DNA of 44,811 bases from Pseudomonadota bacterium (lineage in GTDB: Bacteria > Pseudomonadota > Gammaproteobacteria > Burkholderiales > Burkholderiaceae_C), in assembly GCA_021815805.1 (NCBI GenBank), contig JAKAZQ010000027.1, forward strand, positions 1 to 44,811. Reading direction: 5' to 3'. Positions 1,819 through 21,819 of this stretch are shown here, piece by piece. Each line of letters starts with the position of its first letter. Positions within the stretch are counted from its first letter, which is position 1. Below the pieces are notes generated by a model that did no database searches, was not told where the DNA came from, and saw only the letters and a program-made list of their open reading frames with translations. The position numbers and the translations under genes were made by a program.

Positions 1819-3261
1819 ATGACGGACTGGATCGAGAACCGCCCGCTGGCCGAGCTTCGCATCGGCGATACCGCAACCCTGACCCGCAGCTTCACGCGCG
1901 AGGACCTGCAGACCTTCGCGCTGGTGTCGGGGGATGTCAATCCGGCCCACGTCGACGCCGAGTACGCGGCCAGCGACGAGTTCCACGCCGTGGTGGCGCA
2001 CGGCATGTGGAGCGCCGCGTTGATCTCCAGTGTGCTGGGCACCCAGCTGCCGGGCCCCGGAACGGTGTATGCGGGACAGGACCTGCGCTTCCTGCGCCCG
2101 GTGTTCGTCGGCGACACCGTGCGCGTGACCGTCACCGTGACCGCCATCGAGCCGGCGGCGCAGAAGCCGCCGCAGGCGCGCCTGAGCTGCAGCGTGGTCA
2201 ACCAGCGCGACGAGCCGGTGGTCGAGGGCGAGGCGGTGGTGTTCGTGCCGCAGGCCAAGGTGCGCCGCCCGCGCACCCACCTGCCGCGCCTGGAATTGCG
2301 CGATCCCGGCGCCAAGCTTCGCGCACTCGTCGCACAGGCCCAGCGCGCACGCGCCGGGCAGGCTCCGCTGCGCATGGCGGTGGTGCACGCGGTCGACGCG
2401 GTGTCGCTGGGCGGAGCCGTCGACGCGGCGCGCGCCGGGCTCATCGAGCCGGTGTTCGTCGGCCCCGAGGCACGCCTGCGCGCCGCCGCGCAGGCCGCCG
2501 GCATCGACCTGGCGCCCTACGCCATCGAACCGACCGAGCACAGCCATGCGGCGGCCGCGCGCGCCGCGGCGATGGCGCGCGAGGCGCGCGTCGAGGCCGT
2601 GATGAAGGGCTCGCTGCACAGCGACGAGCTGCTGCACGCGCTGCTCGACGCCAGCGCCGGGCTGCGCACGGCGCGCCGCGTCAGCCATGTGTTCGTGATC
2701 GACGCCGTGGGCCTGCCGCAGCTGCAACTGCTCACCGACGCGGCGGTCAACGTCGCGCCCGACCTCGCGGCCAAGCGCGATATCGTGCAGAACGCCATCG
2801 ACCTCGCGCACGCGCTGGGGATGGCGAATCCACGGGTGGCGATCCTGTCGGCCGTGGAGACGGTGACCCCGAAGATTCCCTCGACCCTCGACGCTGCGGC
2901 ACTGTGCAAGATGGCCGATCGCGGCCAGATCCGCGGCGGCGTGCTCGACGGACCGCTGGCCTTCGACAACGCGGTGTCGCTGCGCGCGGCGCGCACCAAG
3001 GGCATCGTCTCGCCGGTGGCCGGCCGCGCCGACGTGCTCGTCGCGCCCGACCTGGAGGCGGGCAACATGCTGGCCAAGCAGCTCGAATACCTGGCCGAGG
3101 CCAAGGTCGCCGGCATCGTGCTGGGAGCGCGCGTGCCCGTGGTGCTGACCAGCCGCGCCGATCTGCCCGATGCGCGCCTGGCCTCGTGCGCGCTGGCCGT
3201 GCTGCTGGCGGCGCATGCCGCCGCCGGCGCCACGCCGGACGACGCCGGAGCGCCGGCATGA
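1819..3261 (+). CDS. Bifunctional MaoC-like enoyl-CoA hydratase / phosphate acetyl(butyryl)transferase
   Basis: A 480-aa fusion. Residues 1 to about 150 are a MaoC/hot-dog hydratase domain with the catalytic motif D39-x-N-P-x-H44, which hydrates trans-2-enoyl-CoA to (R)-3-hydroxyacyl-CoA, the PHA synthase substrate. From about residue 170 to the end is a PTA_PTB domain that exchanges CoA and phosphate on an acyl group to give acyl-phosphate for acetate kinase. It lies between phaC and ackA, and its TGA overlaps the ackA ATG (ATGA), so the pair is probably translationally coupled. No clear Shine-Dalgarno precedes the ATG at 1819. The fusion is known in Proteobacteria. Whether the acyl group is acetyl or longer cannot be read from sequence. 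Confidence 0.92.
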   Translation: MTDWIENRPLAELRIGDTATLTRSFTREDLQTFALVSGDVNPAHVDAEYAASDEFHAVVAHGMWSAALISSVLGTQLPGPGTVYAGQDLRFLRPVFVGDTVRVTVTVTAIEPAAQKPPQARLSCSVVNQRDEPVVEGEAVVFVPQAKVRRPRTHLPRLELRDPGAKLRALVAQAQRARAGQAPLRMAVVHAVDAVSLGGAVDAARAGLIEPVFVGPEARLRAAAQAAGIDLAPYAIEPTEHSHAAAARAAAMAREARVEAVMKGSLHSDELLHALLDASAGLRTARRVSHVFVIDAVGLPQLQLLTDAAVNVAPDLAAKRDIVQNAIDLAHALGMANPRVAILSAVETVTPKIPSTLDAAALCKMADRGQIRGGVLDGPLAFDNAVSLRAARTKGIVSPVAGRADVLVAPDLEAGNMLAKQLEYLAEAKVAGIVLGARVPVVLTSRADLPDARLASCALAVLLAAHAAAGATPDDAGAPA

Positions 3262-4535
3262 GCGCGGCGCCGGGCGTGGAACACACGCACACGCGCGCGC
3301 CGGACGCGCAAGCCGCGCCGGCGCCGGGCGGCGCCGCGGCCACGCTGCTGAGCATCAACGCCGGCTCGTCGAGCCTGAAGTTCGCGCTGTTCGCGCACCC
3401 CCGCGGCAGGCACGCCGGCCCGCTGCCGGCGGCGCGGCTGCGCGGCGAGATCGACCTGCGCGACGGGCGCGCGCTGCTGCGCTGGCAGCAGCCGGGCGCC
3501 CCGGAGCGCAGCGTCGAGCCCGACGCCGAACGCGGGGACATCGGCGCCGAGACGGCCTGGCTGGTGCACTGGCTGGACCAGGCCATGGGGCTGCCGCGCC
3601 CGGACATCGTGGCGCATCGCATCGTGCATGGCGGCCTGCGCTTCACGCGCGCCACGCGCATCGACGCCGCGGTGGAGGCCGAGCTGGGCCGCCTGCGCAG
3701 CCTCGCGCCGTTGCACCAGGGCCCCGGGCTGGACGGCGTGCGCGCGGCGCGCCAGGCGCTGCCGGCAGCGGTGCAGGTCGCCTGCTTCGACACCGCGTTC
3801 CACGCCGGCCATGCCGACGCCGAGCGGCGCTACGCCATTCCGCGCCGCTGGCACGATCTCGGCTACCAGCGCTACGGCTTCCACGGGCTGTCGTTCGACG
3901 CCATCAGCCGGCGCCTGCCGGGCCTGCTCGGCGCGCGCGCCGACGGCGCGGTGGTGGTTGCGCACCTGGGCAGCGGCGCCAGCCTGTGCGGCCTGCGCGG
4001 ATTGCGCAGCCGCAGCACCACGATGGGCTACACCGCGCTCGACGGCCTGGTCATGGCGACGCGCTGCGGCAGCCTCGACCCCGGGCTGGTGCTGCACTGG
4101 ATGCAGCAGGACGACCTGCAGCCGCAGCGCATCTCCGACCTGCTGTACCGCGAAAGCGGACTGCTCGGAGTCTCGCAGATCAGCGCCGACCTGCGCGCGC
4201 TGATGGCCAGCGACGACGCGCGCGCCGGCGACGCCGTGGAACTGTTCATCGCCTCCGCGGTGCGCCACGTCGGCGCGGTGGCGGCGAGCATCGGCGGGCT
4301 CGACGCGCTGGTCTTCACCGGCGGCATCGGCACCCACCAGCCGCTGGTGCGCCAGGCCATGGTGGAACGCCTGGCATGGCTCGGCCTGCAACTCGACGCG
4401 CCGGCCAACGCGGCCGGCGGGCCGCTGATCTCCAGCGCGTCGAGCCGCGTGCCGGTGCTCGTGCTGGAGACCGACGAGGAGGCCGTGATGGCGCTGCAGG
4501 CGGCCGAACTGTGCGGCCTGCCGACGCCGCGGTGA
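3258..4535 (+). CDS. ackA: Acetate/propionate kinase
   Basis: Makes ATP from acetyl- (or propionyl-) phosphate and ADP. The protein is 425 aa, slightly longer than the usual ~400 because of a ~30-residue N-terminal extension. Visible motifs: NAGSSSLK (34-41), the HRIVHGG arginine region (120-126), FDTAFH (177-182), HLGSGAS (236-242), MATRCG and TDEE (405-408). Two usually conserved places differ: the FHGTSH segment reads FHGLSF (208-213), and the GIGENS loop reads GIGTHQ (356-361). It overlaps the MaoC-Pta gene by 4 nt, so the two enzymes form a Pta-AckA substrate-level phosphorylation pair. The variant residues hint at altered substrate range; this is inference. Confidence 0.9.
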   Translation: MSAAPGVEHTHTRAPDAQAAPAPGGAAATLLSINAGSSSLKFALFAHPRGRHAGPLPAARLRGEIDLRDGRALLRWQQPGAPERSVEPDAERGDIGAETAWLVHWLDQAMGLPRPDIVAHRIVHGGLRFTRATRIDAAVEAELGRLRSLAPLHQGPGLDGVRAARQALPAAVQVACFDTAFHAGHADAERRYAIPRRWHDLGYQRYGFHGLSFDAISRRLPGLLGARADGAVVVAHLGSGASLCGLRGLRSRSTTMGYTALDGLVMATRCGSLDPGLVLHWMQQDDLQPQRISDLLYRESGLLGVSQISADLRALMASDDARAGDAVELFIASAVRHVGAVAASIGGLDALVFTGGIGTHQPLVRQAMVERLAWLGLQLDAPANAAGGPLISSASSRVPVLVLETDEEAVMALQAAELCGLPTPR

Positions 4536-12562: not shown

Positions 12563-13015
12563 CTAGGCCGCGGGCGCGGCGTCCCCGGGGTGCACCAGCA
12601 GCACCGCGCAGCCGCAGCCGCGCGCCACCGCCTCGGCCACGCTGCCCAGCACCAGGTTGCCCACGCCGCTGCGCCCGTGGCTGCCGAGCACGACGAGCTG
12701 CGCCCGCCAGGCAGCGGCCTCGGCGCACACCGCGTCGGCGACGCGCGGCGCGGCCGCGCCGGTTTCCGTGATGGCCGTGCTGACGTCGACGCCGAACTGC
12801 GCCGCCCGGTTCATCCAGTCGTCGAGCAGCAGCCGGGCATCGCTGTTCATGGTCGACGCCATGCCGGGCAGGCTGCCGGCGAGGCTGGCGCTGTCGACGA
12901 CGCACACCATGCGCAACGAGGCGCGCAGGCCGCGCGCCAGTGCGATGGCGTGCTCGGCGGCGTGCTGGGCGGTGCCGCTGGCGTCCAGCGCGAGCAGGAT
13001 TCGTGAGTACATCAT
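12563..13015 (-). CDS. Universal stress protein (UspA family)
   Basis: A 150-aa single-domain Usp. It starts with the family pattern YSRILLALDASGTAQHAAEHAI and ends with the ATP-binding-type motif VLGSHGRSGVGNLVLGSVAEAV (G-x2-G-x9-G-S), followed by a CAVLLVHP beta strand. ATP-binding Usps act in stress survival, often under low oxygen. The start is a double ATG (13015 and 13012); GGAG at the usual distance favours the second. It is the last gene of the phasin-phaB-ppk2-eRF1-like-usp series and converges on the tolC-like gene, leaving only 22 nt between the stop codons. Confidence 0.92.
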   Translation of the reverse strand: MMYSRILLALDASGTAQHAAEHAIALARGLRASLRMVCVVDSASLAGSLPGMASTMNSDARLLLDDWMNRAAQFGVDVSTAITETGAAAPRVADAVCAEAAAWRAQLVVLGSHGRSGVGNLVLGSVAEAVARGCGCAVLLVHPGDAAPAA

Positions 13016-13050
13016 GGGCTCCGGGAAAGTGGTTGCAGGCAGACGCGCGC

Positions 13051-13443
13051 TCACAGCCCGAGCCGGGTGCGGCCGTCGTGCGCGCGCAAGCACTCCCGCG
13101 CGCCGCGCACCAGGGTCTCGTCGGGCAGGCGCTGGCTGGTCTGCACGGCCACCACGCTGGCCGCCAGTGCCGGCGCATGGCGCTGCAGGTGTTTCAGGAA
13201 TTCGCTCTTGGCCAGCCCGGGTCCGCTGAGCACGACGGCGTCGGCGCCGTCCAGCGCACGCGCGACGGCGTCGAGAAAGGCCCGATCGGGGGCGGCGCGG
13301 GCCCCGCTCACCGAGCCTTCGCGCCGGTGCAGGCGCGGGTGCTCGGACTGCGCGATCACGGTCTTGCTGGTCGCCTCGTCGCGCAGCTGCAGCACGTGCG
13401 CCTCGGCATGGTTGAGCCAGACGACAAAGCGGGATGGGGGCAT
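13051..13443 (-). CDS. eRF1-domain/host-attachment-like small protein
   Basis: A 130-aa protein starting WLNHAEAHVLQLRDEATS, with a central DGADAVVLSGPGLAKSEFLKHLQRH and a C-terminal LVRGARECL. This pattern resembles bacterial proteins annotated as 'translational machinery protein' or 'required for attachment to host cells', distantly related to domain 3 of eRF1/Pelota. A very good Shine-Dalgarno (AAGGAG, 7 nt from the ATG) is present. It lies between ppk2 and usp, with 34-35 nt gaps, in the PHB/polyphosphate series. A ribosome-related role in dormancy is conceivable but is inference; the family assignment is from recognition only. Confidence 0.65.
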   Translation of the reverse strand: MPPSRFVVWLNHAEAHVLQLRDEATSKTVIAQSEHPRLHRREGSVSGARAAPDRAFLDAVARALDGADAVVLSGPGLAKSEFLKHLQRHAPALAASVVAVQTSQRLPDETLVRGARECLRAHDGRTRLGL

Positions 13444-13477
13444 GACAGGGCTCCTTGCCGCGACGCTGCGCCACGCC

Positions 13478-14272
13478 TCATGGTGCGATCAGGCCGGCGC
13501 GCAGCGCCTCTTCCGAATAGGCGAACACCACGTGCGGATCCGGGCGCACCAGGTCGGCATCCTTGCCGTGATAGTCGAGGTGGCTCAGCAGGTGGCGGAT
13601 CAGGTTCAGGCGGGCGAGCTTCTTGTCGCCGGCGCGCACCACGGTCCACGGCGCGTGCAGCGTGTGGGTGCGCGCGAACATGATGTTGCGCGCGCGGCTG
13701 TAGTCCTTCCAGTGCTCCTGCGCGACCGCGTCGATCGGGCTCAGCTTCCACTGCTTGAGCGGATCGGTGCGGCGCGAGCGCAGACGCTTGCGCTGCTCGT
13801 CGCGCTCGATGTCGAGGTAGTACTTGAACAGACGGATGCCCGAGCGCACGAGCATCTGCTCGAACACCGGCACGGTGTCGAGGAACTCCTCGTAGCGCGC
13901 GGCATCGCAGAAGCCCATGACCGGCTCCACGCCGGCGCGGTTGTACCAGCTGCGGTTGAACAGCACGAACTCCTGCGCCGCCGGCAGATGCGGGACGTAG
14001 CGCTGGAAATACCAGGCGGTGGCCTCGTGGTCGGACGGCTTGCCGAGGGCCAAGACCCGGGTCTCGCGGGGGGAAAGATGCTCCACCACGCGCTTGATGG
14101 TGCCGTCCTTGCCCGCCGCGTCGCGTCCCTCGAGGATGAGCAGCAGGCGCTCGTCGTGCGCGATCAGGTGCTTCTGGTACTTGACCAGTTCGATCTGCAG
14201 CGCGCGCAGCGCGCGCGCGTAGCCCGGAGCGGCGGAAGCCGGGGCGGGACTGGATGAACGGGTTCGGGCCAT
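13478..14272 (-). CDS. ppk2: Polyphosphate kinase 2 (PPK2 family)
   Basis: A 264-aa single-domain PPK2 that transfers phosphate between polyphosphate and nucleotides (ADP to ATP or GDP to GTP, possibly AMP to ADP). Walker A GRDAAGKDG is at 49-57, the lid region is KRLRSRRTDPLKQWKLSP, and the Walker B-region motif reads FNRSWYNRAGVEP (105-117). In many members I recall, the first residue of that motif is Asp (DRSWYNR); here it is Asn106. An ATP-regenerating role would fit beside PHB and acetate kinase genes. A possible own promoter (TATGCT at 14337-14332) lies 60 nt upstream, in the 121-nt gap after phaB. Confidence 0.92.
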   Translation of the reverse strand: MARTRSSSPAPASAAPGYARALRALQIELVKYQKHLIAHDERLLLILEGRDAAGKDGTIKRVVEHLSPRETRVLALGKPSDHEATAWYFQRYVPHLPAAQEFVLFNRSWYNRAGVEPVMGFCDAARYEEFLDTVPVFEQMLVRSGIRLFKYYLDIERDEQRKRLRSRRTDPLKQWKLSPIDAVAQEHWKDYSRARNIMFARTHTLHAPWTVVRAGDKKLARLNLIRHLLSHLDYHGKDADLVRPDPHVVFAYSEEALRAGLIAP

Positions 14273-14393
14273 GGCGAAACGTGGCGGAGCGGACGAGGGT
14301 TTCAGCGCGCCACGCGCGCCGTGCCGGACACAGCATAGGACGCCGCGGGCCTGCCGTGCAGCCCACGCTCGCGTTGCGGGTCGCGGCTCGGGC

Positions 14394-15119
14394 TCACGCC
14401 AGGTACTGCCCGCCATTCACCGCCAGCGTCGCTCCGGTGATGAACCCGGCACGCTCGTCGACCAGGAACGACACGGCATGCGCGATCTCCTCCGGACGGC
14501 CGAGGCGGCCGAGCGGGATCTGCGCCTTGATGCCCTCCAGGACCGGCGCGTCGATGCCGGCGAGCATGTCGGTGTCGGTGTAGCCGGGCGCCACCGCGTT
14601 CACCGTGATTCCCTTGCGCGCCGACTCCAGCGCGAGCGCCTTGGTGAATCCGATCACCCCGGCCTTGGCCGCGGAGTAGTTGGCCTGCCCGAACTGCCCC
14701 TTCTGGCCGTTCACCGAAGAGATGTTCACGATGCGCCCCCAACCCCGCGCGCGCATGCCCTCGATGACCGAACGGGACATGTGGAACAAGGCGTCGAGAT
14801 CGTCCTGCATGACGTCCCGCCATTGCTGCAGGCTCATGCGGTGCAGCATCGCGTCGCGCGTCACCCCCGCGTTGTTGACCAGCACGTCGACGCCCTGGCC
14901 CAGCGCGCGCTGGACCTCGCGCACGCCGGCCTGGCAGGCCTCGTGGTCGGCGACATCCCAGCGGAACGTCGGCAGGCCCGTGGCATGGCGAAAGGCCTCG
15001 GCCGCCGCCTCGTTGCCGCGATAGTTGACCGCCACGCGCAGCCCGTCGGCGGCGAGGCGGCACGCGATGGCCGCGCCGATGCCGCGCGTGCCACCGGTGA
15101 TCAATGCCGTTCGTGTCAT
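14394..15119 (-). CDS. phaB: NADPH-dependent acetoacetyl-CoA reductase
   Basis: A 241-aa short-chain dehydrogenase that reduces acetoacetyl-CoA to (R)-3-hydroxybutyryl-CoA for PHB synthesis. The cofactor loop is GGTRGIG (9-15), NNAG is at 82-85, and the catalytic Ser135, Tyr148 and Lys152 lie in NISSVNGQKGQFGQANYSAAKAG. The stretch VNGQKGQFGQ is diagnostic of PhaB rather than FabG. Shine-Dalgarno GGAG is 7-8 nt from the ATG. It follows the phasin gene by 28 nt and precedes ppk2 in the same direction. With phaC at the left edge, synthesis from acetoacetyl-CoA is covered; no beta-ketothiolase is in the window. Confidence 0.94.
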   Translation of the reverse strand: MTRTALITGGTRGIGAAIACRLAADGLRVAVNYRGNEAAAEAFRHATGLPTFRWDVADHEACQAGVREVQRALGQGVDVLVNNAGVTRDAMLHRMSLQQWRDVMQDDLDALFHMSRSVIEGMRARGWGRIVNISSVNGQKGQFGQANYSAAKAGVIGFTKALALESARKGITVNAVAPGYTDTDMLAGIDAPVLEGIKAQIPLGRLGRPEEIAHAVSFLVDERAGFITGATLAVNGGQYLA

Positions 15120-15147
15120 GGCCGTCTCCCCACGCAGGGCCGGCGCC

Positions 15148-15723
15148 TCAGGAGGCGCGCCGCCGCGCCGCCGGGCGCGCGCGCGCCGCGGCCGCGGCGT
15201 CGGGAGCCGGCGCGGCGCCGGCCTGCCCTGCGTCCTGCGCCAGGCGCTGCATCTGCTCGCTCAGCGAACGCGCGGCCTGCGCCTGCGAGTGGGTCCAGTT
15301 CTGCAGCGCCTGCGTCAGCATCTCGGTGCTGCCGCGCAACCAGTCGGTCTGGCCGTTGCCGGCTCCCGGCGTCGCCTGCGCCGCCGCCTGCAGGCTTTGC
15401 TGCAGGTGCTCGGCGCTTTGCCGCAGGGCCTGCGAAAAACCGGCCTGCATGGCGCCGGCGATCTCGCCCAGTTGCTGCACGTAGGCCGCCGCCTGCGTGC
15501 CGTCGCCGCGCAGCGCCTGCTGCGGCAGCGCCGCCCATTCGCGCGGATCGCGCGCCTGCAGCGCGTCGCGCATGGCCTGCGAGGTGTTCTGCGCCAGCTC
15601 GCGCACGGCCTGCAGGTGCAGGCGCGTCAGCTGGTCGAGGCCGGCCAGCGCGCTGTCGAACATGCCGGTGAAGCATTCGAGTTCGGCGCGCTGCGCGGCC
15701 TGGAGGTGCTCGCTGGGGTTCAT
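15148..15723 (-). CDS. phaP: Phasin (PHB granule-associated protein)
   Basis: A 191-aa, all-helical protein rich in Ala, Gln and Leu with no cysteine-rich or membrane segments apart from a single Cys near the N-terminus. The order FDSALAGLDQLTRLHLQAVRE, then LAQNTSQAMRDAL and AAAYVQQLGEIAGAMQAGFSQAL, matches the phasin family that coats PHA granules. The C-terminus is basic and Ala/Arg-rich (PAARRRAS), which could contact DNA or granule surfaces; that is inference. Shine-Dalgarno AGGAG lies 7 nt before the ATG. It is the first gene of the minus-strand storage operon, and its upstream region carries the best FNR-like site of the window. Confidence 0.9.
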   Translation of the reverse strand: MNPSEHLQAAQRAELECFTGMFDSALAGLDQLTRLHLQAVRELAQNTSQAMRDALQARDPREWAALPQQALRGDGTQAAAYVQQLGEIAGAMQAGFSQALRQSAEHLQQSLQAAAQATPGAGNGQTDWLRGSTEMLTQALQNWTHSQAQAARSLSEQMQRLAQDAGQAGAAPAPDAAAAARARPAARRRAS

Positions 15724-15787
15724 GGTCGGCTCCTGGCTTGTGCGGCGACGCGTGCATGGCGCCGCCGTCCGTGGGACATACTCCCGG

Positions 15788-15829
15788 AGTGTCTTCCAGC
15801 GCGCGCGATTTGTCATTGACCTGGATCAG
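15788..15829 (-). promoter_or_regulatory. Candidate FNR-type promoter of the phasin-phaB-ppk2-usp series
   Basis: Read toward phaP the site is CTGAT-CCAG-GTCAA (15829 to 15816), 8 of 10 matches to the FNR consensus TTGAT-N4-ATCAA. GACACT (15793 to 15788, 3 of 6 to TATAAT) follows 22 nt downstream. The dyad centre is about 99 bp from the phaP ATG. The spacing fits class II activation near -41.5. It is the strongest of four similar sites in this gene island. Confidence 0.5.
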
Positions 15830-15859: not shown

Positions 15860-17851
15860 CTACAGGCCGAACGGATACGTCTCGGGCAAGCCGTCCAGCG
15901 CCAGCGCGCCGAGCGGCGTGACTGCGCTGGTGCGGTCCATCCAGACATACTCGTCGAACTGGCGCGGCAGCACCGACTCGAAGTAGTGGCTGGCCAGTTC
16001 ACTGTCGGGGCGGTAGATCACGCCGACCGCGCGCTGCAGGCGCGCCTGCAGCAGGCCGCCGACGTCGTCGCCGGGCTGCGTGCCGCGCAACGGCAGCAGC
16101 AGTCCGGGCATGCCGCTGTCGTGGAACACGCGCTCGTAGCTGTGCGCCGCCGACGGGCGCAGCCTCATGACCTCCATCGGTGCATCCCACTGCCGGGCCG
16201 CCGCGACCTCGCCGCCATGGGTTCCGAAGCCGATGCTGTAGGCGCGCTCGCCGAACACCTTGCGGCACAGGCGCCCGATGTTGAACTCGCCGCGCAGCGC
16301 CATCTCGGTGGCGGCGGAGTCGCCGATGTGCGCGTTGTGCGCCCAGATCACGGCGCGGCTTTGCGGGCCGCGGAAGTCCAGCAGGGTGCGCAGGGTCTCG
16401 AACATGTGTCCGTCGCGCAGGTTCCAGGACGCACGCGAACCGTAGTACATGGTGCGGTAGTAGCGCTCGGCATTCGCCACCAGGCGCGCGTTCTGCAGCG
16501 CATCGAGAAAGCCCTCGCCGTCGAGCGGGCTGTAGGCCGCGTGGCTGTGCAGCATGTCGCGCAGCATGGCGACCACCTCGTTCTCGCACGAGCGGTAGCG
16601 CGCCGTCAGCGCGGCCTGGGCGTAGGCGGCCGGGTCGCCCTCCCACGGACTGAGGCAGCCGTAGCGCCGGCGCGCGACGCGCGCCGTCTCCGGGTCGATG
16701 CGCTCGAGATAGTCCAGCACGCGCTCGATCGAGCCGTAGAGGCTGTACAGGTCGAGCCCGTAGAACGCGACGCGCCGCGTCGGCTGCAGCCCGGCATTGA
16801 AGCCATGCAGCCAGTCGACGAAGTCCGCGACCTCGCGGTTGCGCCACATCCAGGTGGGAAAGCGCGCGAAGGCCTGCCACTGCGCCGGCGCGGACGCGGC
16901 GTGGCGCACGTAATGGTCGATGCGCGCGGCGTCCGGCCAGTCGGCCTCGACCGCGACGAAGTCGAAGCCGCGACGCTCGATCAGGGCACGCGTGAGGCGC
17001 TGGCGCATGCGATAGAACTCGGCGCTGCCGTGCGAGGACTCGCCGATCAGGACCACGCGCGCCAGGCCGATGCGGCGCAGCAGCGGCTCCAGATCCGCCT
17101 GCTCGAGATCGTCGAAGGCCTCGCCCGCGGCGCCCACCGCGGCCGCCAGCCGCGCCTCCCCGGCCGGCACCGCGGCGCCCTGGCGCGGCAGCCCTGCCGT
17201 TTCCACGAAGGAGCCGCCGAGCAGCGGCGCGAGGTGCAGGTCGGCGACGTCCTCCTGCTGGTACTGCAGCTCGGAAATGCGGCGCACGCGCACCAGTTCC
17301 TGGGCGCGCGCGGCGCCGCCGGCGTACAGGACCAGCCGGCCGCCGCGCGCCAGCTGCTCGCGCAGCGCAAGCGACGGGTCGGCATGGCCGGGGTGCACCA
17401 GCACGGCGTCGAACGGTGCCTGCGACGGCCAGCCGGCCGCCGCGTCGCCGTGCATCACATGCACGTTGCGCGGCCCGCTGCGCGAGAAGCGCTCGGCCGC
17501 CTGCTCGGCCACGCGCGCGTCCGGCTCCACGCTGTAGACATCGGCGGCGATGCGCGCCAGCACGGCGCTGCCATAGCCGCAGCCGGTGCCGATCTCCAGC
17601 ACCTTCTCGCCGCCGCGCAGCCCCAGCGCGGCGATGCCCAGCGCCAGCGCGTAGGGTTGTTCGAGCAGGCGCCCCTGCGGCAGCGGCAGCGAGGTGTCCT
17701 CGTAGGCGAATTCGCGCATCTCGGGGGGCAGGAATTCCTCCCGCGGCACGTCGAGCAGCGCGTCCAGCACGAGCGGCTCCTGCACGCCTCGCGCGATGAT
17801 CTGGTGTTGCACCATCCATTGCCGGCGGCGCGGGAAGTCAGGCTGGGGCAT
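15860..17851 (-). CDS. Isoaspartyl O-methyltransferase-like / erythromycin-esterase-like fusion protein
   Basis: A 663-aa two-domain protein. Residues 1 to about 215 are a SAM-dependent PCMT-like domain (motif I VLEIGTGCGYGSAVLA at 84-99; HGDAAAGWP; FDAVLVH). The usual PCMT active-site motif GQTISQP reads GRLLEQP (60-66), so the conserved Thr and Ser are replaced. Residues from about 250 on are an erythromycin-esterase-like domain with the family Glu and His (GESSHGSAEF), VEADWPDA and the second His in WAHNAHIGD. Shine-Dalgarno GGAG is 7 nt from the ATG. Such fusions occur in stress-related loci. No antibiotic link is implied by context; damaged-protein or ester repair are guesses. Confidence 0.85.
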   Translation of the reverse strand: MPQPDFPRRRQWMVQHQIIARGVQEPLVLDALLDVPREEFLPPEMREFAYEDTSLPLPQGRLLEQPYALALGIAALGLRGGEKVLEIGTGCGYGSAVLARIAADVYSVEPDARVAEQAAERFSRSGPRNVHVMHGDAAAGWPSQAPFDAVLVHPGHADPSLALREQLARGGRLVLYAGGAARAQELVRVRRISELQYQQEDVADLHLAPLLGGSFVETAGLPRQGAAVPAGEARLAAAVGAAGEAFDDLEQADLEPLLRRIGLARVVLIGESSHGSAEFYRMRQRLTRALIERRGFDFVAVEADWPDAARIDHYVRHAASAPAQWQAFARFPTWMWRNREVADFVDWLHGFNAGLQPTRRVAFYGLDLYSLYGSIERVLDYLERIDPETARVARRRYGCLSPWEGDPAAYAQAALTARYRSCENEVVAMLRDMLHSHAAYSPLDGEGFLDALQNARLVANAERYYRTMYYGSRASWNLRDGHMFETLRTLLDFRGPQSRAVIWAHNAHIGDSAATEMALRGEFNIGRLCRKVFGERAYSIGFGTHGGEVAAARQWDAPMEVMRLRPSAAHSYERVFHDSGMPGLLLPLRGTQPGDDVGGLLQARLQRAVGVIYRPDSELASHYFESVLPRQFDEYVWMDRTSAVTPLGALALDGLPETYPFGL

Positions 17852-17886
17852 CGCGTTTCTCCACGGCTGCGGCGCACGATGGGCGC

Positions 17887-17929
17887 AGTGTGCGCCAGCC
17901 GCCGCCCCCCTTTCCTTGACGTGGAGCAG
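17887..17929 (-). promoter_or_regulatory. Candidate FNR-type promoter of the methyltransferase/esterase fusion gene
   Basis: Read toward the gene, CTGCT-CCAC-GTCAA (17929 to 17916) matches 7 of 10 positions of TTGAT-N4-ATCAA. CACACT (17892 to 17887) follows 23 nt downstream and shares ACACT with the phasin -10 candidate. The centre is about 71 bp from the ATG. It fills the 106-nt gap after the beta-CASP nuclease gene. Confidence 0.4.
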
Positions 17930-17957
17930 CTTGGCCACCGCGCCCGCCCCGGCGCGC

Positions 17958-19355
17958 TCAGCGCAGCAGGATCGGCTCGCCGGCGCCGGGGATCTGGTGC
18001 GCCACGCCGTGCTGCTCGAGCAGTTCGGCGAAGCTGCGCGTGGCGCGGTCGAGATCCCCGTGCACCAGGAAGACGCGCCGCGGCGTTCCGCAGGCCGTCA
18101 GCCAGGCGAGCAGTTCGCTGCGCCCGGCGTGGGCCGAGAAGCCGTTGATGGTGTGCACGTGCGCCCGCACCTCGACCTGCTCGTCGAACAGGCGCACGCT
18201 GTCGGCGCCGTCGATGATGCGCCGGGCCAGCGTGCCCTGCGCGGCGAAGCCGACGAACACCACGCTGGCCGACGCGTTGCCCAGGTTGTGGCGCAGATGG
18301 TGGCGCACCCGCCCGCCGCTGCACATGCCCGAGCCGGCCATGATCACCGCGCCGCCGCGGACGCTGTTGATGGCCATGGACTCGGCGGTGTCGCGGGTCA
18401 TGCGCAGGCCCGGCAGGCTCAGCGGGTCGCTGCCGTGCAGGCGGCGCGCGAACTCCGGGCGCAGGCAGGCCGGATAGCGCAGGAAGATCTCGGTCGCCGA
18501 GATGGCCATCGGCGAGTCGAGGAACACCGTGAGGTGGCGCGGCAGGTCGCCGTGCTCGATGCCGTGACCCAGCGCGTACAGCACCTCCTGCGCGCGCTCG
18601 AGGGCGAAGGTGGGAATGATCACGTTGCCGCCGCGCGCGTGGGTCTGCGCCACCACCTGCACCAGTTCGTCCACCGACTCCGTCCAGCCGCGGTGGTCGT
18701 GATCGCCGTAGGTGGTCTCCATGACCACGTAGTCGGGGGCCTCGCCGGGCGGCTGCGGATCGCGCAGCAGCGCGCGCCCGGGGTTGCCGATGTCCCCGGA
18801 GAAATACACCGTGCGCCGCTGCCCGGCGTCGTCGAGTTCGAGCAGGATGGACGCCGAACCCAGGATGTGCCCGGCGTCGAGGAAGGTCGCGTGCACGCCG
18901 TCGGCCACCGCGAGGCGCTGGCCGTACGGCGCGCTGGTGTCGAAAAAGTCCATGCTGTGGAAGGCGTCGGCCAGCGTGTACAGCGGCTGCGCCGAGACGT
19001 CGTGACGCCATGGATGGCGCTGCGCGCGACGCGCTTCCTCCTCCTGCAGCCCGGCCGCGTCGGCCAGCACCAGGCGTGCCAGTTCGCGGGTCGCCACCGT
19101 GCACGCGATGCGCCCGCGAAAGCCCCGCTTGACCAGCAGGGGGATGCGCCCGCAGTGGTCCAGGTGCGCATGGCTGAGCAGCAGCACGTCGATGCTCGCC
19201 GGATCGAAGCCGAAGTCCTGCGCGTTTTCCTCGACCAGCTCGCGCCCGCCCTGGAACATGCCGCAATCGACCAGCACGCGGGCACGCCCGGTCTGGATCA
19301 GGTGGCACGAGCCGGTGACCTGCTTGGCCGCGCCGTGGCAGGAAAGCCGGATCAT
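17958..19355 (-). CDS. Metallo-beta-lactamase/beta-CASP RNase
   Basis: A 465-aa protein of the CPSF73/YsxB-like bacterial RNA exo/endonuclease group. The metal-binding motif HAHLDH is at 62-67, AGHILGSA and SGDIGNPG follow, and the beta-CASP region carries PTFALERAQEVLY, GSGMCSGGR and the final NGFSAHAGRSEL and LVHGD motifs. The expected acid and His ligands all appear present. It would cleave RNA in the cytoplasm. Shine-Dalgarno GGAGG precedes the ATG, and the start overlaps the stop of the PRPP-synthetase-like gene (ATGA). With the NMP phosphorylase upstream it may feed nucleotides from RNA turnover into salvage; this is inference. Confidence 0.9.
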   Translation of the reverse strand: MIRLSCHGAAKQVTGSCHLIQTGRARVLVDCGMFQGGRELVEENAQDFGFDPASIDVLLLSHAHLDHCGRIPLLVKRGFRGRIACTVATRELARLVLADAAGLQEEEARRAQRHPWRHDVSAQPLYTLADAFHSMDFFDTSAPYGQRLAVADGVHATFLDAGHILGSASILLELDDAGQRRTVYFSGDIGNPGRALLRDPQPPGEAPDYVVMETTYGDHDHRGWTESVDELVQVVAQTHARGGNVIIPTFALERAQEVLYALGHGIEHGDLPRHLTVFLDSPMAISATEIFLRYPACLRPEFARRLHGSDPLSLPGLRMTRDTAESMAINSVRGGAVIMAGSGMCSGGRVRHHLRHNLGNASASVVFVGFAAQGTLARRIIDGADSVRLFDEQVEVRAHVHTINGFSAHAGRSELLAWLTACGTPRRVFLVHGDLDRATRSFAELLEQHGVAHQIPGAGEPILLR

Positions 19356-20299
19356 GGCGCCTCCACGCTGCGCGCCGCGCCGATGCCGCGCAGCGCGTCG
19401 ACGAGTTCGGCGTCGAGCCCGATGCGCTCGACGCCGGCCGGCGCATCCACGCTGTCGCTGCACGCCACGCGCGCGGCGCCGGCGCCGCGCAGCCGTTGCA
19501 GCGCGCCCGGCGCGAACAGCCCGTGCGTGACCACGCACACGGCGCCCTGCAGCCCCTGTGCGCGCAATGGCCCGAGCACCGCGGCGAGGGTCGCGCCCGA
19601 GCTCGCGATGTCGTCCAGCAGCACCGGCGTGCGCCCGCGCCAGCGCCGCATATCGGGCAGCTCGCTCGACACCTCGCGATCGCCCCGCCGCTGCTTGTGC
19701 AGCACGAGCATGGGCGCCGCCACGCGCGCCGCCACGTCGGCGACCCACTGCCGGCTTTCGGCGTCCGGGCCGATGAGCAGCGGATGCGCGACCTCGGCGC
19801 CGATCCAGCGCGCGATCGGCCCGGCCGCATGCACCACGCGCGAGCGCAGCGTATACACCTCGGCCAGCGAGGCGATGCGGTGCAGGTGCGGATCGACGGT
19901 GATCAGCCAGTCGAAATGCTGCGAAAGCCAGCGCGCGTAGATGCGCGCCGAAACCGCCTGGCCCGGCGCGAAGGCACGATCCTGGCGCATGTAGGCCAGG
20001 TACGGCGCGACCAGGCCGAGCCGGGTGGCGCCGAGTTCGCGCAGCGTCGCCGCCGCCATGAGCAGCGGCACGCTGCGCGCGTCCGGGTCCTGCAGCGTGC
20101 AGACCAGCGCGGCCGGGCCGCGCGGCGCCTGCACGCGCACCAGCGACTCGCCGTCGGGAAAGCGATGCAGTTCGAGCTGCGCCAGCTGCGCCGCGTCCGC
20201 CAGGCCGGCGACCAGCGCCTCGGCGCGCGCCTCGTTTCCCGGCATGGCATAGACCTGCAAAGGGTGCGCTGCGAGCGCGCGGCATGCGACAGGGCTCAT
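19352..20299 (-). CDS. Ribose-phosphate pyrophosphokinase (PRPP synthetase) family protein
   Basis: A 315-aa Prs-family protein that would make PRPP from ribose-5-phosphate and ATP. The ATP-binding segment YMRQDRAFAPGQ (103-114), the metal site DPHLH (136-140) and the PRPP loop LLDDIASSGATL (227-238) are visible. These differ from the housekeeping class I Prs motifs (RQDRK..RVPIS, DLHADQIQGF, VDDMIDTAGT) and look closer to the archaeal/class III-type forms. It overlaps both neighbours by 4 nt: the phosphorylase stop upstream and the RNase start downstream. It is probably an accessory Prs dedicated to this operon. Its substrate could be ribose phosphates released by the neighbouring phosphorylase; this is inference. 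Confidence 0.87.
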   Translation of the reverse strand: MSPVACRALAAHPLQVYAMPGNEARAEALVAGLADAAQLAQLELHRFPDGESLVRVQAPRGPAALVCTLQDPDARSVPLLMAAATLRELGATRLGLVAPYLAYMRQDRAFAPGQAVSARIYARWLSQHFDWLITVDPHLHRIASLAEVYTLRSRVVHAAGPIARWIGAEVAHPLLIGPDAESRQWVADVAARVAAPMLVLHKQRRGDREVSSELPDMRRWRGRTPVLLDDIASSGATLAAVLGPLRAQGLQGAVCVVTHGLFAPGALQRLRGAGAARVACSDSVDAPAGVERIGLDAELVDALRGIGAARSVEAP

Positions 20300-21819
20300 G
20301 ACGGATCCAGATGCACGATGCCGGGGTGATGGCGCACGAAATCCAGCGCGTAGTCGAGCTCGCCCTGGGATTCGGCATGCAGGTCGAACAGCGGCTGGCC
20401 GCGCTGCACCCGCTCGCCCACGTGCACATGCAGCAGCAGCCCGGCGGTGCAGGCGTGCGGAGCGCCGGCGAGCTTGGCCGCGCGCGCCAGCAGGCGATTG
20501 TCGATGCGCTGCACGCAGCCGGTATGCGGCGCCGGCACCGGGCGCTGGAACGGCGCCACGCCGGGCTCGCGCAGCGCGCCCTGCGCGCGGCAGATGGCCT
20601 CGAACTTGCGCCAGGCGCTGCCGTCGGCGAGGCTGTGCGCGGCCAGCTCGCGTGCCGCCTGGCCCGACTCCAGGCCGCCCAGCTCGATCACCGCGGCCGC
20701 CAGGTCGAGCGCGCGTCGGCGCAGGTCGTCGGGCGCATCGGCGTGGTTCTGCAGCACGCGCAGCACGTCGTGCGCCTCCAGCGCCGGGCCGACGCCGCGC
20801 CCGACCGGCTGCGAGCCGTCGGTGATCAGCCCGAGCAGCCTGAGCTCGAGGGCGCGCGCGCTGGCCTGCAGCGCGTGCAGCAGCGACTGCGCCTGCTGCG
20901 CGCTGCGCACCTTGGCGGTCGGCCCGGTGGGGATGTCGATGACCACGTGCGTGGCGCCGGCGGCGGCCTTCTTGGACAGCACCGAGGCCACCAGTTGCGC
21001 CTCGCTGTCCAGGTCGAGCATGCGCTCGACGCGGATCAGCAGGTCGTCGGCCGGACTCATGTTCATGGCGCCGCCCCAGACCATGCAGGCGCCCTCGCTT
21101 TCGACCACGCGGCGCATCTGCGCCAGGTCGAGATCGACGCGGGTGATGGTCTCCAGCGTGTCGGCGGTGCCGGCCGGCGACGTGATGGCGCGGGAGCTGG
21201 TCTTCGGCATGAGCAGGCCGAGCGCGGCGGCGATCGACACCACGATCGGCGTCGTGCGGTTGCCGGGCAGGCCGCCGATGCAGTGCTTGTCGACGACCAC
21301 GCCCTGCGGCCAGCTCATGCGCGCGCCGGCATGCACCATGGCGCGCGTGAGGCTGGTGACCTCGCCGCTGCTCATGCGCCCGCCGGCGCAGGCGACGAGG
21401 AAGGCCGCGATCTCGACATTCGACAGCCGGCCGTCGACGATCTCGCCGATCACCGCCTCGAAGGCGCCCTCGCGCAACGCGCCGCCGAAGACCTTCGCGC
21501 GCACATGGCTCATGGCGTCGCTGGCGCGGGCGAAGCGAAAGCGCAGGCGCTCGTCGCTGCGCGGCTGCAGGCGATGCCAGGCGGCCTCCGACAAGCCGAC
21601 CTCGCCGGGCGCCAGCAACTCGCCCTGTCGCAGGATGTTCAAGGTGGCGACGATCGAGCGCGCATCTCCCAGCACCTCGATGCGGGCATGCGCCTCGAAA
21701 CCCTCGGCGCGCACCACCGGCGAGTCGGCGCGCAGCACCACCACCGGCTCGTGGTGGGTGTCGATCCCCAGGCGGCGCGGCAACAGCGAGAACGGCGGCG
21801 CGGCGGGCGCTTGCTCCAT
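20296..21819 (-). CDS. AMP/NMP phosphorylase (thymidine phosphorylase family, long archaeal-type form)
   Basis: A 507-aa member of the nucleoside phosphorylase II family. It has the ~85-residue N-terminal domain found in archaeal AMP phosphorylases and absent from E. coli DeoA (440 aa). Key segments: KHCIGGLPGNRTT (178-190), KTSSRAITSPAGTAD (206-220) and a C-terminal SQPVGRGVGPALEA. AMP phosphorylase splits NMP with phosphate into base and ribose-1,5-bisphosphate; the long form plus these motifs favour that over thymidine phosphorolysis. It is the first gene of a three-gene overlapped operon. GGGGGAG precedes the ATG, and an FNR-like promoter candidate lies upstream. The activity has not been shown for this bacterial branch to my knowledge. 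Confidence 0.88.
   Translation of the reverse strand: MEQAPAAPPFSLLPRRLGIDTHHEPVVVLRADSPVVRAEGFEAHARIEVLGDARSIVATLNILRQGELLAPGEVGLSEAAWHRLQPRSDERLRFRFARASDAMSHVRAKVFGGALREGAFEAVIGEIVDGRLSNVEIAAFLVACAGGRMSSGEVTSLTRAMVHAGARMSWPQGVVVDKHCIGGLPGNRTTPIVVSIAAALGLLMPKTSSRAITSPAGTADTLETITRVDLDLAQMRRVVESEGACMVWGGAMNMSPADDLLIRVERMLDLDSEAQLVASVLSKKAAAGATHVVIDIPTGPTAKVRSAQQAQSLLHALQASARALELRLLGLITDGSQPVGRGVGPALEAHDVLRVLQNHADAPDDLRRRALDLAAAVIELGGLESGQAARELAAHSLADGSAWRKFEAICRAQGALREPGVAPFQRPVPAPHTGCVQRIDNRLLARAAKLAGAPHACTAGLLLHVHVGERVQRGQPLFDLHAESQGELDYALDFVRHHPGIVHLDPS

Follow-up and report, generated by a model that had tools for sequence, protein, structure and literature searches.

What might be the joint function of an archaeal-type phosphorylase, a divergent relative of phosphoribosyl pyrophosphate (PRPP) synthase (Prs), and a beta-CASP ribonuclease (RNase) whose genes overlap one another? 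The question is raised by a 44,811-nucleotide stretch of DNA (the window; positions 1 to 44,811 of contig JAKAZQ010000027.1, GenBank assembly GCA_021815805.1) from a Pseudomonadota bacterium of the Burkholderiaceae_C. A preliminary description of this DNA had pointed to the overlapped genes and to several motifs in their products, all of which were confirmed by the sequence, the translations, and family profiles; it had proposed that RNA is cut, that nucleoside monophosphates (NMPs) are phosphorolyzed, and that the Prs-like enzyme uses the resulting ribose-1,5-bisphosphate (R15P) or ribose-5-phosphate, salvaging bases, phosphate, and PRPP during starvation. That interpretation is partly supported by the analysis presented here. 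Our best reading is that the operon provides an uncharacterized RNA-ribose salvage or fermentation that is oxygen-regulated in some hosts. We give roughly even chances to the joint proposition that the three genes form one operon and that this operon reclaims RNA ribose in bacteria through NMP phosphorolysis and, at least in some hosts, belongs to the response to low oxygen. In such a pathway, the RNase would cut RNA toward 5'-NMPs, the phosphorylase would use phosphate to split the NMPs into free base and R15P, and the Prs-like enzyme would act on the resulting sugar phosphate, thereby connecting this sugar with adenine nucleotides and with ribose-5-phosphate. In some relatives, acetyl phosphate, ATP, and acetate would then be formed from pentose phosphate by phosphoketolase and acetate kinase. 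We infer every substrate, product, and direction of flux, as well as the role in the window organism.

The resemblance of the window phosphorylase to archaeal NMP phosphorylase is supported by its predicted fold and its conserved residues. The protein carries the motifs KHCIGGLPGN and KTSSRAITS, the second of which it has in common with the archaeal enzyme, and its closest solved sequence was the AMP phosphorylase of Thermococcus kodakarensis (4ga5, E-value 6.2e-91). The AlphaFold2 model (pLDDT 88) had its best fold match in the same structure, with a TM-score of 0.90 over 502 columns that included the N-terminal domain, in agreement with the long archaeal form recognized in the preliminary description; pyrimidine and thymidine phosphorylases were the next matches (TM-scores of 0.66–0.73). 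For a comparison of residues, we aligned 136 bacterial, three archaeal, and only two thymidine phosphorylase sequences (480–560 residues, free of X). Among the positions conserved in more than 90% of the bacterial sequences, 38 had the archaeal state and differed from both thymidine phosphorylases (N187, R188, S209, T213, S214, E265, and K303 are among them), and 11 did not have the archaeal state. The position of R171 in Escherichia coli thymidine phosphorylase, which we take, as with the other single-residue roles, to be a thymine-binding residue of the base site, is Glu265 in the window protein and Glu in 98% of the 136 bacterial rows. Relatives of the protein are annotated as 'thymidine phosphorylase family protein', and the window enzyme differs from its archaeal counterpart in being partnered with Prs-like and RNase genes. 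According to the part of PMC9700705 that we used, the substrates of the T. kodakarensis NMP phosphorylase include AMP, CMP, and UMP; the part of PMC8376864 available to us contained nothing usable on the active-site roles of AMP phosphorylase.

The second protein, with the motifs DPHLH and DDIASSGATL, belongs to the Prs family, but it is not the housekeeping enzyme, because the window genome (G000) encodes another Prs (G000:C8) with the canonical Gly-Gly loop. Its divergence, asserted earlier, was upheld in an alignment of 133 operon-family and 15 housekeeping sequences (Prs outside 250–380 residues were dropped). Lys202, Arg204, Arg105, Asp107, Phe47, Glu51, and Asp230 were present in 100% of both groups, and the window protein shares with PRPP synthase the F47/D49/E51 residues, the RQD motif, the catalytic Lys and Arg, and the DD..T loop. 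It departs from that enzyme in having DPHLHR for DLHADQ and in the loop that follows Pro178-Asp179, where x-E-S-x-Q-W replaces x-G-G-V (GPDAESRQW, residues 177–185). The Glu, at the position of the first Gly, was found in 132 of 132 operon-type loops and the Ser in 129 of 132, whereas all 15 housekeeping sequences had Gly-Gly; two of the 132 rows (L091 and L092) came from loci without a phosphorylase, and one further row with a canonical loop (L122), which does not adjoin a phosphorylase, was dropped from this count. In three archaeal Prs structures, the residue aligned with this Glu is Gly. We take the segment altered from Gly-Gly to Glu-Ser to be the Prs pyrophosphate loop. The portions of PMC9232217, PMC3380012, PMC10227994, and PMC5395218 available to us contained nothing usable on the role of that loop. 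Because the catalytic residues are kept while the loop and the DLHADQ motif are changed, the sequence suggests that the Prs-like protein retains its nucleotide and ribose-5-phosphate sites and may handle the C1 phosphate differently.

The RNase is closest, among solved sequences, to the beta-CASP enzyme TTHA0252 (E-value 1.2e-89), and it has the metal motif SHAHLDH (H62, H64, D66, and H67, the HxHxDH of the metallo-beta-lactamase fold); it differs from TTHA0252 in sitting in an operon with the phosphorylase and the Prs-like protein. Both junctions of the trio are 4-nucleotide ATGA overlaps, at 20296-20299 between the phosphorylase and Prs-like genes and at 19352-19355 between the Prs-like and RNase genes.

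The pairing of the first two genes recurred widely. Profile searches of 274 genomes of the window's class with NF003338 (phosphorylase) and NF005537 (Prs-like) gave matches over the cut-off in 59 and 53 genomes, respectively, and in 51 for both, such that 51 of the 53 genomes with this type of Prs also have the phosphorylase. We examined 60 neighborhoods from this class, made up of 58 of the 61 over-cut-off phosphorylase matches (the window itself, G058, and G105 were left out) and two with the Prs-like gene alone. In 55 of the 58, the phosphorylase gene was followed immediately by Prs, and the two genes mostly overlapped or were separated by a short gap; one of the other three loci (L078) is at a contig end. 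A second set was obtained by scanning a species-genome collection with the phosphorylase alignment and comprised the window plus the best 80 of at least 583 relatives; Prs came next in 69 of these 81 loci, and the RNase gene immediately preceded the phosphorylase gene on the same strand in 38 and was the second gene downstream in five. The nearest relative found among those best 80 of at least 583 was L093 (77%). When the loci with a complete context and a label were considered (10 with incomplete context and six unlabelled plasmid loci being omitted), the RNase was directly linked to the pair in 50 of 120, upstream in 42 and downstream in eight. The earlier expectation that the trio is conserved thus held strongly for the pair and often for the trio.

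The linked genes occur in two orders, RNase-phosphorylase-Prs or, as in the window, phosphorylase-Prs-RNase; the latter was also seen in L093, L094, L095, L170, L041, L067, L088, and Bradyrhizobium septentrionale. Pairs with a linked RNase were found in Pseudomonadota, Bacteroidota, Verrucomicrobia, and Chlamydiota. In a FastTree phylogeny of 136 bacterial, three archaeal, and two thymidine phosphorylases, the 136 bacterial sequences fell on one side of a branch with local support of 92. RNase linkage required at least 19 changes on this tree compared to a mean of 38.6 and a lowest value of 32 in 60 shuffles of the 120 labelled rows, so the linkage is partly inherited and has been repeatedly gained or lost. 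Six loci (L142, L144, L145, L148, L149, and L150) share an almost identical neighborhood under Burkholderiales, Pseudomonas, Hydrogenophaga, Pigmentiphaga, and Achromobacter titles, and relatives of the phosphorylase occur on 113 plasmid records (E-values up to 1e-60); from the neighborhood common to differently titled loci and from the plasmid records, the gene set looks mobile. An apparent RNase-phosphorylase fusion in L080 (a 954-residue frame) was dropped, as the junction contains an N and the record holds more Ns.

Genes for these products, arranged in the window's order and with no function given, appear as bll3117-bll3116-bll3115 of Bradyrhizobium diazoefficiens in the parts of PMC6515984 and PMC9104804 that we used. 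In the literature searched, which included few subscription papers, the trio was found only in the gene tables of these two sources; PMC5017801, in the part available, mentions bll3115. In 0.5% O2, the log2 fold changes of the proteins were 2.1, 4.4, and 2.9, and the fold changes of the transcripts were 5.1, 7.7, and 15.4, for bll3117, bll3116, and bll3115, respectively (PMC6515984). Loss of fixK2 decreased bll3117 by 6.6-fold and bll3115 by 30.6-fold, and the same table portion gives a putative FixK2 box at −74, a predicted operon bll3117-bll3116-bll3115, and a phosphoketolase-acetate kinase pair, bll2518-2517 (PMC9104804). The combination that had been thought possibly undescribed was therefore already in published tables, where it stands without a function, and the starvation role found no support, since what has been published on these genes concerns low oxygen. 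The Bradyrhizobium trio is a distant one: the order was also read in B. septentrionale, whose phosphorylase is 43% identical to that of the window (the B. diazoefficiens proteins themselves were not compared). An FNR/FixK-like site with at most one mismatch preceded the operon in 22 of 131 loci, whereas among other operon starts such a site was present in 58 of 831 (Fisher p = 5e-4, with no correction for relatedness). The site is perfect in two near relatives of the window, L094 and L095. A site with a shuffle p below 0.01 was present in only four of the first 59 loci. The whole window has 25 FNR-like sites compared to a shuffled mean of 10.3, an excess from which we draw no conclusion because many of the sites lie inside genes.

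In archaea, the NMP shunt feeds R15P isomerase and RuBisCO, and PhnN is the known enzyme that converts R15P to PRPP. Unlike the T. kodakarensis pentose bisphosphate pathway, the window genome gave no match to RuBisCO (PF00016) or to the IF-2B family, to which R15P isomerase belongs (PF01008), as had been anticipated; DeoB also had no match there, and PhnN had none over the cut-off (best score of 48 bits versus 156). The genome is 94.5% complete, so each of these absences could be a gap. We therefore compared 40 of the 59 phosphorylase-positive genomes with 40 negative ones, hand-picked from the 274 mostly for completeness. A RuBisCO-family match was present in 30 of the 40 positive and 29 of the 40 negative genomes; dependence on RuBisCO was thus rejected, and the archaeal route fails to explain the family. 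The IF-2B family matched in 28 positive and 34 negative genomes, and PhnN exceeded its cut-off in four and one, respectively. Six of the 40 positive genomes lacked RuBisCO, IF-2B, and over-cut-off PhnN matches (G000, G041, G054, G004, G065, and G007). DeoB was over the cut-off in three of the 40 positives, all from this group (G041, G054, and G004; the search covered DeoB among the mutases and the positive genomes), and a DeoB route could therefore serve few of these genomes. A more specific proposal, which we regard as rather unlikely, is that the Prs-like protein would be an R15P:AMP phosphotransferase (R15P + AMP → R5P + ADP, where R5P is ribose-5-phosphate); from established Prs chemistry, this would equal the reverse Prs reaction minus the gamma phosphate.

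A continuation to acetate is suggested by the neighbors of some relatives. A phosphoketolase-type gene was found in 24 of 138 loci; in 14 it was no more than two genes away in an uninterrupted run on one strand, and in six of the 138, acetate kinase was no more than three genes away in a run of this kind. The phosphoketolase-type genes are of two kinds, one over its cut-off (L093, directly upstream) and one divergent and XFP-like. Members of the divergent family, which recurs beside the trio, are at 12621-15035 in L096 and 1369-3738 in L172 and score far below the phosphoketolase cut-offs. A Paracoccus plasmid has, between Prs and RNase, a gene annotated as 'xylulose 5-phosphate 3-epimerase'; by place and size, we took it to be of the divergent kind. 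A Criblamydia plasmid has a run of phosphoketolase, glucan phosphorylase, ATP-cone protein, RNase, phosphorylase, Prs, and acetate kinase genes.

Several observations weigh against reclamation of RNA ribose by an oxygen-regulated operon. The phosphorylase scored 434.3 bits with TIGR03327, the curated AMP phosphorylase model, which is below the cut-off of 535, and a measured activity for a bacterial member was not found in the literature searched. Prs was not next to the phosphorylase in 12 of the 81 loci, and 70 of the 120 labelled loci had no direct RNase link. Near-copies are inside the counts (the six nearly identical neighborhoods named above, L096/L097, and L102/L103) and some loci may belong to both sets, so locus counts are not independent events. 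Phosphoketolase gave no match in the window genome, and it was only mildly more common with the phosphorylase (24 of 40 genomes) than without it (15 of 40). The part of PMC6515984 that we used places the trio in the less stringent of two lists, with '-' in the FixK2-target and bacteroid columns, and the portion of the FixK2 table covered has no separate entry for bll3116 (PMC9104804). In contrast to the putative FixK2 box of B. diazoefficiens, no FNR-like site with up to two mismatches was found within 250 bases upstream of the phosphorylase gene in the window.

The alternative that survives best, although we judge it unlikely, is ordinary salvage, in which a nucleoside phosphorylase would produce ribose-1-phosphate, this would be converted to ribose-5-phosphate, and the Prs-like protein would be a second PRPP synthase for base reuse. 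Such a route agrees with the NCBIfam names ('putative thymidine phosphorylase' and 'ribose-phosphate diphosphokinase'), with the retained Lys202/Arg204 and PRPP-loop aspartates, and with DeoB in three of the six positive genomes without RuBisCO, IF-2B, or over-cut-off PhnN matches, but it must contend with the 38 archaeal-type phosphorylase positions that differ from the two thymidine phosphorylases (R171 replaced by Glu265 included), the Glu-Ser of the presumed pyrophosphate loop, the canonical Prs already in the window genome, and the scarcity of DeoB, which is missing from that genome's matches. Distinctly unlikely, in our estimate, is co-regulation only, with each of the three genes belonging on its own to a low-oxygen or stress regulon and the three not forming a single pathway; the widely varying other neighbors (Usp, PPK2, P-type ATPases, and SDR) and the loci lacking a direct RNase link would suit it, whereas the close spacing of phosphorylase and Prs in the class loci and the co-occurrence in 51 of 53 genomes argue otherwise. 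Synthesis of PRPP from R15P by the Prs-like enzyme, as first proposed, fits poorly and is highly improbable: the step could be free, given that PhnN had no over-cut-off match in the window genome, but Prs places diphosphate on a free C1 hydroxyl that R15P lacks, a different, kinase-type transfer would be needed, and the altered loop, taken as the pyrophosphate loop, makes the protein less like a PRPP binder.

The genes of the trio are listed below. Downstream of it are, among others, genes for a PCMT/erythromycin-esterase-like protein, a phasin, an SDR, PPK2, and Usp; upstream are those for a potassium-channel-like protein, an FAD-linked oxidase, and an FMN-reductase-family protein. We excluded these neighbors from the unit because most relatives do not have them.

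Location and family assignment of the three overlapping genes in the window
Product	Coordinates	Strand	Profiles over cut-off
NMP-phosphorylase-type protein, 507 residues	20296..21819	minus	NF003338/TIGR02645
Prs-like protein, 315 residues, PRK07199 subfamily	19352..20299	minus	NF005537 (PRK07199)
Beta-CASP metallo-RNase, 465 residues	17958..19355	minus	PF10996 (Beta-Casp), PF07521 (RMMBL), PF00753

Elsewhere in the window, PCMT-like and erythromycin-esterase-family domains share a single reading frame (15860-17938), MaoC-PTA fusion, acetate kinase, Usp, PPK2, SDR, and phasin genes occupy 1819-4535 and 12563-15816, and an FNR-like site, TTGACCTGGATCAG, is at 15816-15829 before the phasin gene. 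Among the class loci, 15 (L034, L035, L038, L043-L050, L053, L055, L071, and L075) have a gene for a membrane protein of ∼175–221 residues, presumably DUF1614, directly after the Prs-like gene, with an SDR gene near several. An ATP-cone protein, possibly a nucleotide sensor, is encoded directly before the RNase in L190 (2777-3619, the Criblamydia plasmid) and L191 (1972-2817, a Pontibacter plasmid), and a similar-looking gene is at or near that place in Bacteroidota loci of the 81-locus set.

Judged by sequence, the trio is best classified as a putative bacterial version of NMP phosphorolysis in which the phosphorylase has a distinctive Prs-like protein as its partner and, often, an RNase encoded alongside. 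The trio is present in B. diazoefficiens, where it could be deleted, so the question is directly testable. If the Prs-like protein were an R15P:AMP phosphotransferase, then in combination with phosphorolysis, and with phosphoketolase and acetate kinase where these are present, it would enable oxygen-short cells to gain ATP by fermenting their RNA and to re-phosphorylate the released AMP, all without R15P isomerase, RuBisCO, or PhnN. If the proposed chemistry holds, the family names 'thymidine phosphorylase' and 'ribose-phosphate pyrophosphokinase' would be wrong, and the operon would represent an as yet unassigned bacterial way from RNA to sugar phosphate, and perhaps to ATP, under low oxygen.

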